NCBI GenBank assembly: GCA_000153745.1
Contig: DS022282.1
Location: 1,656,816-1,720,815 of the forward strand
Direction of reading: 5' to 3'
Length of the DNA stretch: 64,000 nt
From: Rhodobacterales bacterium HTCC2255
Lineage (GTDB): Bacteria; Pseudomonadota; Alphaproteobacteria; Rhodobacterales; Rhodobacteraceae
Shown: positions 27,527-57,393 of the stretch, piece by piece
How the letters are laid out: each line of letters opens with the position of its first letter
Position numbering within the stretch: the stretch's first letter is position 1
Notes under the pieces: generated by a model
Seen by the model: only the letters and a program-made list of their open reading frames with translations
Databases searched by the model: none
Told to the model about the DNA's origin: nothing
Position numbers and translations under genes: made by a program

Positions 27527-29044
27527 ATGTTAGAAGCCTATTTAATGTCTCGCAAAAAGTGGATGCGTTGCTTTGTTTTTTTCTTGCTTGGCTTTATTAT
27601 GGCTTTAGCTCAAGCACCCTTTGATTTCAGCTTAGTTTATTTTTTTGTATTACCATTTTTGGGTTTCTTTATACGGGATTTAAAAGATAAAAAAACTGCT
27701 TTTAAGATTGGCTGGTGGACAGGTTTTGGATATTTCGGATTTACTATAATATGGATCATTGAACCTTTCTTGGTTGAGCCAAAAATAACTGGATGGATTG
27801 CACCATTTGCCTTATTAATGATGGCTGGTGGTTTGGCTATATTCTGGGCATTGTCATTTTATGTTGCTACTTGGTTAACAACAGAAGGTAAAATTCGTAT
27901 TATTTTATTGGCATTATCATGGACATTTTTTGAATATTTAAGGTCATTTATTTTTACTGGTTTTCCATGGGGACATTTAAGTTATGGATTGCTTGGAATA
28001 CCTATGATTCAAATGGTTGCTTGGGTCGGCGCTCATGGATTAGGTGCTATACTATTAGTAGTTTGTTTTATCCCAGTAATTTGTGTTCCTAAAATAAAAA
28101 TCGGTTATGCAATAATGTTAAGTATTTTATTTGGTCTTAATATTATTGGGGCTTGGAGATCCAATAATATAATTTTGGACAATCCTGAAAATATTATTGT
28201 TCGAGTTATTCAACCCAATGCCACACAAAATTTAAAGTGGCGCACTGATATGAAACATGTTTTCTACCAAAGGCAATTAAACTTTACCGGATCTAAAAAT
28301 ACTAAATCCCCTAATGTAGTTATTTGGCCTGAGACAGCAATATCTAAATTACTAAAAGATAGTGATGTCATGATTGAAGAAATTTCAAATACAGCGGGTT
28401 CTAAAGCGTCTGTAATTTTGGGAATTGTTCGTAAGGAAAATAATAAATCTAGAAATTCATTAGTACTAATAAATGAACAAGGAGATTTAAGTGCAATATT
28501 TGATAAGCAACATTTAGTTCCATTTGGGGAGTATATGCCAATGGCTAATCTTTTAAAAAATATTGGCCTATCAAATCTAATTGGTCTTGCTGGTAATTTT
28601 GAGCCTGGGAATCGTTCAAGAATCATTAATGCAAAAAATATTCCAAAATTTTTAGCTTTGATTTGTTATGAAGCAATATTTCCAAATTATTCAAATGAGA
28701 TTAAAAACCGACCTGATTGGATTGTTCAAATAACAAATGATGCTTGGTTTGGAAATTTTTCAGGACCATACCAACACTTGGCACAAGCTAGAATTAGAGC
28801 AATTGAACAAGGATTACCATTTGTTCGATCTGCAAACACTGGAATAAGTGCAATGATAGATCCTTATGGGCGTGTTTTAAATAAAATAGAACTGGAGGCT
28901 TCTGGATATTTTGATGCCGCACTTCCATCTAAAATACAACCAACTCCGTACTCAAAATTTGGAGAATTATTTTTAGCTTTGTTTTGTGGATTATTACTAT
29001 TGGCTTGTTTTGCAAACATGTATAAAAAAAGTAGTATAGAATAA
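27527..29044 (+). CDS. lnt: Apolipoprotein N-acyltransferase
   Basis: Lnt adds the third acyl chain to lipoproteins in the inner membrane. The 505-residue protein has several N-terminal membrane helices (about residues 10-200), then a nitrilase-like periplasmic domain with the catalytic Glu-Lys-Cys triad visible in VVIWPETAISK, DKQHLVPFGEYMP and FLALICYEAIFPN, and a last helix near the C-terminus. The start could also be the ATG 18 bp further in (MSRKKW). Its action fits the LpoA-like lipoprotein at 3.9-5.1 kb. Confidence 0.95.
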   Translation: MLEAYLMSRKKWMRCFVFFLLGFIMALAQAPFDFSLVYFFVLPFLGFFIRDLKDKKTAFKIGWWTGFGYFGFTIIWIIEPFLVEPKITGWIAPFALLMMAGGLAIFWALSFYVATWLTTEGKIRIILLALSWTFFEYLRSFIFTGFPWGHLSYGLLGIPMIQMVAWVGAHGLGAILLVVCFIPVICVPKIKIGYAIMLSILFGLNIIGAWRSNNIILDNPENIIVRVIQPNATQNLKWRTDMKHVFYQRQLNFTGSKNTKSPNVVIWPETAISKLLKDSDVMIEEISNTAGSKASVILGIVRKENNKSRNSLVLINEQGDLSAIFDKQHLVPFGEYMPMANLLKNIGLSNLIGLAGNFEPGNRSRIINAKNIPKFLALICYEAIFPNYSNEIKNRPDWIVQITNDAWFGNFSGPYQHLAQARIRAIEQGLPFVRSANTGISAMIDPYGRVLNKIELEASGYFDAALPSKIQPTPYSKFGELFLALFCGLLLLACFANMYKKSSIE

Positions 29045-29069
29045 TAATATCATAATGATATTAATTTAA

Positions 29070-29114
29070 GGCTTACAACGGCTACCTGAAGTAAGTTGAC
29101 ATAAAAACGGAGCA
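29070..29114 (+). promoter_or_regulatory. SAM/SAH riboswitch in the metK leader
   Basis: CTTAC at 29072-29076 pairs with GTAAG at 29091-29095, enclosing AACGGCTACCTGAA, and GGAGCA follows at 29109-29114 just before the metK ATG. This matches, from memory, the SAM/SAH riboswitch consensus: a short stem, an ACGGCUNCCUG loop, and a GGAGCA element. In that class the 3' element pairs with GCUNCC of the loop as an H-type pseudoknot, and here that element is the metK Shine-Dalgarno. Ligand binding would hide it and shut off translation, giving feedback on SAM synthesis. Structure is inferred by eye; SAM-II was considered and fits less well. Confidence 0.85.
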
Positions 29115-29118
29115 AATT

Positions 29119-30285
29119 ATGTCAAGAAAAGATTACCTATTTACCTCTGAGTCAGTTTCAGAAGGGCATCCAGATAAAATATGCGACAGAATTTCTGATG
29201 CAGTACTAGATGCGTTCTTAAGTGAGGAAGAAATGGCTCGTGTTGCCTGTGAAACTTTTGCAACAACAAATCGTGTTGTAATTGGAGGAGAGGTTGGGCT
29301 AGCAGATCAGTCAAAATTAAAATTAGTAAAATCAAATGTAGATTCTATAGTTCGAGAATGTGTAAAAGACATTGGATACGAACAAGATGGTTTCCATTGG
29401 GAAACATTACATATTGATAATTTACTACATGACCAATCAGCTCATATCGCCCAAGGTGTTGATAATGATGGTGCAGGTGACCAAGGCATAATGTTTGGTT
29501 ATGCTACCAATGAAACACCAGAATTAATGCCAGCGCCAATACAATATTCACATGCGATTTTAAGTAATTTAGCTGAAGCTAGGCATTCTGGGGCACTATC
29601 GCAACTAGGGCCAGATGCAAAATCTCAAATATCTGTAAAGTATGAAGCTGGTAAGCCAGTCGGTGTTACATCTATTGTATTATCAACACAGCATTTAGAT
29701 GAAAATCTATCATCTGCTGATGTTCGAGAACTAGTTGAGCCATATATTCGCAAAACATTACCAACTGATTGGATTTCAAAAGATACCGAATGGCACGTGA
29801 ACCCTACTGGCAAATTTGTTATTGGTGGTCCTGATGGAGATGCAGGATTAACGGGGCGTAAAATTATTGTTGATACTTATGGTGGTGCTGCTCCACATGG
29901 CGGCGGCGCATTTTCTGGAAAAGACCCAACAAAAGTAGATCGTTCAGCTGCGTATGCTGCACGCTATTTAGCAAAAAATGTTGTAGCAGCATGCCTTGCC
30001 GATAAGTGCACAATTCAATTATCATATGCAATTGGTGTTTCAAAGCCACTTTCAATATATTGTGATACTCATGGAACTGGCCAGGTATCAGATGAAAATA
30101 TTGAAAAAGCTGTATCGCTTGCAATGGATTTAACACCTGTAGGTATAATCAAACATTTAAGCCTTCGAAAGCCGATATATGCTAGAACTGCATCATATGG
30201 ACACTTTGGACGTGCACCAATGAATGATGGTGGTTTCTCTTGGGAAAAAACAGATTTGATGAATGCATTAAAGAAGTCTGTTTGA
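29119..30285 (+). CDS. metK: S-adenosylmethionine synthetase
   Basis: MetK makes SAM from methionine and ATP. The 388-residue protein shows [20 protein letters not shown] at the N-terminus, [12 protein letters not shown] in the middle and [19 protein letters not shown], the phosphate-binding GGGAFSGKD loop. The ATG at 29119 is preceded at the right distance by GGAG inside the riboswitch element. A strong terminator follows. Confidence 0.98.
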
Positions 30286-30306
30286 CGTATCATACCAATC
30301 AAAGTT

Positions 30307-30336
30307 AAAAAGCCTCAATTTATTGAGGCTTTTTTA
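30307..30336 (+). terminator. Rho-independent terminator after metK
   Basis: AGCCTCAA at 30311-30318 pairs with TTGAGGCT at 30323-30330 around a TTTA loop, and is flanked by A-run and six-T tract so that it is nearly symmetrical. It ends only 11 bp before the trmB ATG, so trmB either relies on read-through or on a promoter overlapping metK. Confidence 0.88.
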
Positions 30337-30347
30337 GGATAAATATT

Positions 30348-31070
30348 ATGACGAAACGCGAAAAACATGTTTCTGGTGCGCCTCGGAGGAATTTTTATGG
30401 CCGAATTAAAGGTAAATCCCTTCAAAAATCACAAGAAAGATACATGTCTGAAGATCTTGAGGCTCTCAAACCTAAGAATGTCACTTGGGCAGATAATCCT
30501 GATAGAAATTTAATTCATCCGCGTGAGTGGTTTGAAGATGATCGTGAAATATGGCTTGAAATTGGATTTGGGGGAGGTGAGCATCTTGTTCATCAGGCAA
30601 GCTCCAACCCTGATAAAGGTATAATTGGTTGTGAGCCATATATCAACGGAGTTGCCATGTTATTGGGTAAAATTCGATCTGCAAAAGTTAATAATATTAT
30701 AGTTCATCCTGGTGATGCTAGAGACATGATGGATATATTGCCAAAAGAGACCATATCGCGTGCATTTTTATTATATCCCGATCCATGGCCTAAAACGCGC
30801 CATCATAGAAGGCGCTTTGTAACACCAGAACATCTTGAACCTTTAGCTGCATGCTTAAAATCAGGTGCAATTTTTAGAGTTGCTACAGATATTGAGGACT
30901 ACGTAAGGCAAACACTTGAAGAGGTTCATTTAAATGGAAATTTTGAATGGCTTGCTGAAAGTGCAAGTGATTGGAAGCAGCCATGGGATGATTGGATTTC
31001 TACAAGATATGAACTTAAAGCTTTGCGTGAAAATCGTACGCCACATTATTTAACGTTCAGAAAAATATAA
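30348..31070 (+). CDS. trmB: tRNA (guanine-46-N7-)-methyltransferase
   Basis: TrmB methylates G46 of tRNA. The 240-residue SAM-dependent enzyme has WLEIGFGGGEHLVHQA as SAM motif I and the family signature LLYPDPWPKTRHHRRRFV, with TRYELKALRENRTPHYLTF at the C-terminus. It follows the metK terminator closely and lacks an obvious Shine-Dalgarno sequence. The metK-trmB order is widespread in Rhodobacterales and their relatives. Confidence 0.95.
   Translation: MTKREKHVSGAPRRNFYGRIKGKSLQKSQERYMSEDLEALKPKNVTWADNPDRNLIHPREWFEDDREIWLEIGFGGGEHLVHQASSNPDKGIIGCEPYINGVAMLLGKIRSAKVNNIIVHPGDARDMMDILPKETISRAFLLYPDPWPKTRHHRRRFVTPEHLEPLAACLKSGAIFRVATDIEDYVRQTLEEVHLNGNFEWLAESASDWKQPWDDWISTRYELKALRENRTPHYLTFRKI

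Positions 31071-57316: not shown

Positions 57317-57393
<77 letters not shown>

Follow-up and report, generated by a model that had tools for sequence, protein, structure and literature searches.

The leader of metK in the window (the whole 64,000-nucleotide stretch of Rhodobacterales bacterium HTCC2255 DNA that was analysed) is, judged on its sequence, a genuine and ordinary member of the SAM/SAH riboswitch family RF01727 in an AT-rich relative. It is very probably (about 0.93) a functional riboswitch controlling metK translation by feedback. When no ligand is bound, the leader would be folded as the P1 stem-loop and the GGAG would be free for the ribosome. When SAM or SAH is plentiful, a ligand-stabilised pseudoknot would form over the Shine-Dalgarno and metK would be switched off. 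Repression of translation by such a pseudoknot is the published model (PMC7367207), and the same ligand pocket is described for env9b in a simulation paper (PMC10390503). The sequence, a covariance-model match, the gene context and conserved P1 pairing are established here. Ligand binding, pseudoknot formation, the off-switch and the dual sensitivity to SAM and SAH are expected by analogy with published members.

The site scores 45.2 bits for RF01727 (SAM-SAH; Rfam cmscan, positions 29067-29114, + strand), above the gathering score of 40, which bears out the assignment to the SAM/SAH class made in a preliminary description of this DNA. The bases named there are also found as noted: CTTAC (29072-29076), the loop (29077-29090), GTAAG (29091-29095), GGAGCA (29109-29114) and the ATG (29119). 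R1, a covariance model of our own, was built from 54 leaders, the AT-rich genus copies L001 (window), L019, L025 and L029 being left out. It gives the window site 32.9 bits (E 3.8e-7 in 162,978 bases), against only 12.5 bits for the runner-up place in the window; the other AT-rich genus leaders score 30.6-36.6 bits. A single RF01727 copy was found in the genome from which the window comes.

Features of the metK leader region, with positions counted from the first base of the window
Feature	Positions	Strand	Evidence or remark
Palindrome, AT-rich, TAATATCAT-A-ATGATATTA	29045..29063	+	just past the lnt stop
SAM/SAH aptamer RF01727, whole match	29067..29114	+	cmscan 45.2 bits; R1 32.9 bits
P1, 5' strand, GGCTTAC	29070..29076	+	sequence; pairs counted in the genus alignment
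Loop AACGGCTACCTGAA, conserved, holds the P1 extension	29077..29090	+	numbering of PMC7367207
Pseudoknot, 5' strand, GCU.CC	29081-29083, 29085-29086	+	within the loop AACGGCTACCTGAA
Extruded base 20, A	29084	+	within the loop AACGGCTACCTGAA
Ligand-pairing U23	29087	+	within the loop AACGGCTACCTGAA
P1, 3' strand, GTAAGTT	29091..29097	+	sequence; genus alignment
Linker of 11 nt, GACATAAAAAC	29098..29108	+	sequence
Possible start-codon hairpin, TTGACATAA / TTATGTCAA	29096..29125 (29096-29104 with 29117-29125)	+	folding; chance possible
GGAGC, pseudoknot 3' strand (G46 G47 A48 G49 C50)	29109..29113	+	published pseudoknot pairing (PMC7367207)
metK, methionine adenosyltransferase, 388 aa	29119..30285	+	NCBIfam TIGR01034, 494.1 bits, cut-off 309.4

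The aptamer is found between lnt, the gene upstream (TIGR00546, 283.5 bits, cut-off 132.9), and metK; 4 nt separate the RF01727 match from the metK ATG. P1 had been described as a 5-bp stem, CTTAC/GTAAG. This core is present, but with the two G-U pairs on its outer side the full P1 comes to seven pairs (29070-29076 with 29091-29097). The motif had been placed in the 50 nt before metK; its start and end are corrected to 29067-29114. The proposal that it is smaller than known ones is not upheld: it has 48 nt for the 49 positions of the model and is therefore not a shortened motif. After P1 the loop order is A13 A14 C15 G16 G17 C18 U19 A20 C21 C22 U23 G24 A25 A26. The pseudoknot strand includes the Shine-Dalgarno of metK, GGAG, at a distance of 6 nt from the ATG. 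The place of this GGAG inside the last element of the motif had been pointed out before, and agrees with the published translational mechanism (PMC7367207). A terminator-like hairpin is found past metK (30307-30334). It is listed for the - strand; a T run likewise follows it on the + strand. Apart from the riboswitch, one Rfam match of the window reaches its gathering score, a tRNA gene (57317-57390; RF00005, 69.5 bits).

The genus has RF01727 matches in 29 of 33 genomes (27 over the cut-off), and in all 22 genomes with a completeness of 90% or more and a contamination of 5% or less. Three of the four others are without a metK hit (G019, G020, G030), and the last (G029) has an N run directly upstream of metK (L146); these four are no evidence of loss. 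With stricter filters, by which some weak matches are lost, the family was matched in 342 of 394 genomes (337 over the cut-off), the 61 relatives in 31 (29 over) and the class in 5 of 385, all five within the same family. Among the 52 unmatched family genomes, the leaders of G033 and G036 have no motif by inspection, with R1 or at gathering score. This distribution agrees with published accounts: the motif is reported only in Rhodobacterales, before metK (PMC2864571), and it precedes metK in 13 of 15 genomes in PMC4239095. The host belongs to the Rhodobacterales, and the occurrence of the riboswitch in it is taxonomically unsurprising. Phage-borne copies were rejected. A pattern scan gave 112 viral-contig stretches; all 112 were scored with R1, the best reaching 21.4 bits against 32.9 for the window, and they are therefore regarded as chance hits of the pattern.

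Conservation of pairing was assessed in 27 genus leaders. For the 13-pair structure, 96.0% of cells are standard pairs, against 28.5-54.9% when it is slid by 1-3 columns; the result is similar in the 54-leader set (98.0% and 29.1-59.6%, respectively). In the genus alignment, 47 cells are changed on both sides, against 15.2 in shuffles; neither this number nor the covariation score was reached by any of 500 shuffles. The pairs changed on both sides are 6 of 13, all in P1 (6 of the 8 helix-1 pairs); 55 of the 500 shuffles and two of the slid versions get as far on this count by itself. The five pseudoknot pairs are invariant in both the genus and the 54-leader alignments, and C15-G24 is invariant in the genus alignment. 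Since the pseudoknot pairs never vary, covariation is silent on the pseudoknot, for or against.

U23, C15-G24, G46 and all five possible pseudoknot pairs are present in the window sequence, and so are the bases that form a pair with the ligand or stack against it in the crystal structure. The departures from the majority are A20 (extruded in the crystal), A26 and C45. Bases were counted in 66 distinct leaders (loci L001-L035, L111-L140, L273, L274), 30 of them the best-scoring of the 342 family matches; constancy of the loop and pseudoknot in this set is partly by choice, because the selection pattern fixes most of those positions. Base 20 is U in 60, A in 5 and C in 1; base 25 is A in 43 and G in 23; base 26 is C in 59 and A in 7; base 44 is A in 37, U in 15 and C in 14; base 45 is U in 53 and C in 13. 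A44 of the window is the commonest state. The 2' oxygen of base 44 is reported to touch the ligand, and base 26 to be in a non-Watson-Crick pair with A13 (PMC7367207).

A Cy3 dye has been attached to the 2' oxygen of base 20 in published work (PMC7367207), and the same group reports that Cy3 in the loop leaves folding unperturbed (PMC10516623); A20 should therefore be tolerated. Tolerance of base 26 is less certain, though A26 occurs naturally (7/66 leaders). In single-molecule work the wild type had a Kd of 11 uM; C26Z raised it only to 42 uM, which speaks for tolerance at base 26, whereas the double change A14C/C26U raised it to 593 uM and a broken pseudoknot to over 1 mM (PMC10516623). Given the value for A14C/C26U, tolerance of A26 is not assured. 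A20 is also found in another genus (G191), and C20 in G187. Pattern hits with a base 20 other than U were obtained in 8 of the 394 family genomes and are riboswitches in three (G000, G191, G187), so that a non-U base 20 in an otherwise standard core is found in 3 of 394. The hits in G390, G365, G430, G277 and G108 score at most 11.4 bits with R1. In a separate case, G002 (L276 / L145; 88% MetK identity), U is in place of G24, beside the ligand site. Its leader has 29.6 bits for RF01727, under the cut-off, and is outside the 66-leader set; this U24 would reflect either decay or an altered pocket.

The linker and the metK start region can form nine perfect pairs around GGAGC (-6.9 kcal/mol). The perfect 9-bp form is found in the window only, among the 66 leaders; in L123 the linker also pairs with the start region, less firmly. 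The hairpin might be an added local lock: linker-start codon pairing would hold GGAGC in a hairpin loop, and two structures would set initiation. This is unlikely. Of 20000 shuffled linkers only 45 match the stability of the nine-pair hairpin, the AUG is paired at 0.998 or more between 10 and 37 C when folding is modelled with pseudoknots left out, and the 91-nt fold has z = -3.40. However, the resulting p of about 0.002 is weak given that 66 leaders were looked at, 325 of 20000 random linkers with a similar GC content match this stability, L019 and L025, the closest relatives, do not have the hairpin, and 3 of the 66 leaders, L123 among them, reach p 0.05, which is the chance expectation. On this last count, a family-wide start-codon hairpin was also rejected. 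The hairpin ranks second when 60 crudely defined ORF starts of the window are compared. Also improbable is a second layer gained by the species, in which the linker would be a start-codon clamp and the loop of the AUG hairpin would present the Shine-Dalgarno to the ribosome or to the pseudoknot. If the clamp were true, the weak P1 would be offset by a locally closed start site. The possible hairpin could also blunt the switch.

Farther upstream, 61 of the 66 leaders have a TTGAC that begins 45-53 nt before A13; of equally wide stretches still further upstream, 13 of 3168 contain it. This TTGAC may be the -35 box of a promoter for metK, with the mRNA starting close to where the aptamer begins. 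The box is absent in five of the 66 leaders: those of the window, of L019 and L025 (its closest relatives, with 95 and 94% MetK identity) and of the GC-rich L124 and L129. L019 and L025 have TATGAT 24 nt before A13; the window has TAATGAT at the same place, inside the palindrome, whose right half is where the relatives have this -10-like element. The palindrome may have a promoter role. A similar AT-rich palindrome is found in the leader of G027. A scan of 28800-30400 for the sigma-70 consensus found 7 against 6.0 expected, none of them on the + strand of 28900-29119.

The AT-rich genus copies L001 (window), L019, L025 and L029 are in loci of 35-39% GC (window locus: 35%). The four have an identical loop, an 11-nt linker, 7/7 P1 pairs and P1 energies of -1.9 to -6.0 kcal/mol. 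P1 of the window has 7/7 pairs (two G-U, 2 G-C) and a predicted -3.6 kcal/mol. The weak A/T-rich stem claimed for it is indeed weak but not exceptional, P1 being weaker in 6 of 28 genus leaders. Five of these six come from loci with 49-54% GC, so that stem weakness is no peculiarity of AT-rich genomes. Among GC-rich family members, those with the highest scores mostly have a P1 of about -9 to -11 kcal/mol, but score was how they were chosen. For P1 energy against locus GC, Spearman is -0.68 in the 66 leaders (no kinship correction; the 30 best-scoring family matches included) and -0.34 in the 28 genus leaders (p 0.07; no kinship correction); the free-energy minimum of the hairpin gives -0.47 in the latter (p 0.01). 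A clear link between P1 strength and genome GC was dropped as a claim, since the set with -0.68 holds the 30 best-scoring matches and the genus alone gives -0.34.

It is very improbable that the AT-rich branch is losing the motif by drift and that the window copy binds too weakly to matter. The AT-rich genus copies are at the low end of the scores (45.2, 49.9, 47, 40, 29.6 bits), one of them, G002, has the U replacing G24, and P1 energy tracks locus GC with the coefficients given above, kinship being ignored. Against this, the four AT-rich copies all keep 7/7 P1 pairs despite substitutions, where 17 of the 28 genus leaders do so; drift would break pairs. In the loop and the pseudoknot strands these four copies also depart from the consensus at no base other than 20 and 26.

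That the site belongs to a different SAM riboswitch class, or matches by chance, can be dismissed at the sequence level on the Rfam scans and R1: nothing was found in favour, no other Rfam family comes near the RF01727 score of the site (28700-29500 scanned alone with E up to 10 gave this match and one other, far under the threshold of its family), E is 1.2e-6 across the window (64 kb, both strands, 4227 families) and the site is directly before metK.

The leader is therefore best classed as a new RF01727 member and not as a reduced form of the motif. With it, a small and well-studied riboswitch gains a natural variant that is AT-rich; in other respects a known pattern is confirmed. The variant raises the possibility that bases other than U are acceptable at position 20, that A13 may be paired with A26 instead of C26 in the P1 extension and that a P1 as weak as about -2 to -4 kcal/mol may be enough. 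Other pseudoknot-based SAM riboswitches are likewise built on a pseudoknot but are separate classes with their own fold; no other SAM family was matched here. With its AT-rich relatives G027, G022 and G007 (L019, L025, L029), the window copy shares the loop, the linker length and the 7-pair P1; its linker sequence differs, and only the window has the 9-bp start-codon hairpin. With the RF01727 members of Roseobacter sp. SK209-2-6 and env9b, it shares P1, the P1 extension, the H-type pseudoknot, the Shine-Dalgarno in the 3' strand, the position immediately before metK and the ligand-contact bases. It differs from known members in its 35% GC locus, A20, A26, C45, a P1 with 2 G-C pairs and the possible extra start-codon hairpin.
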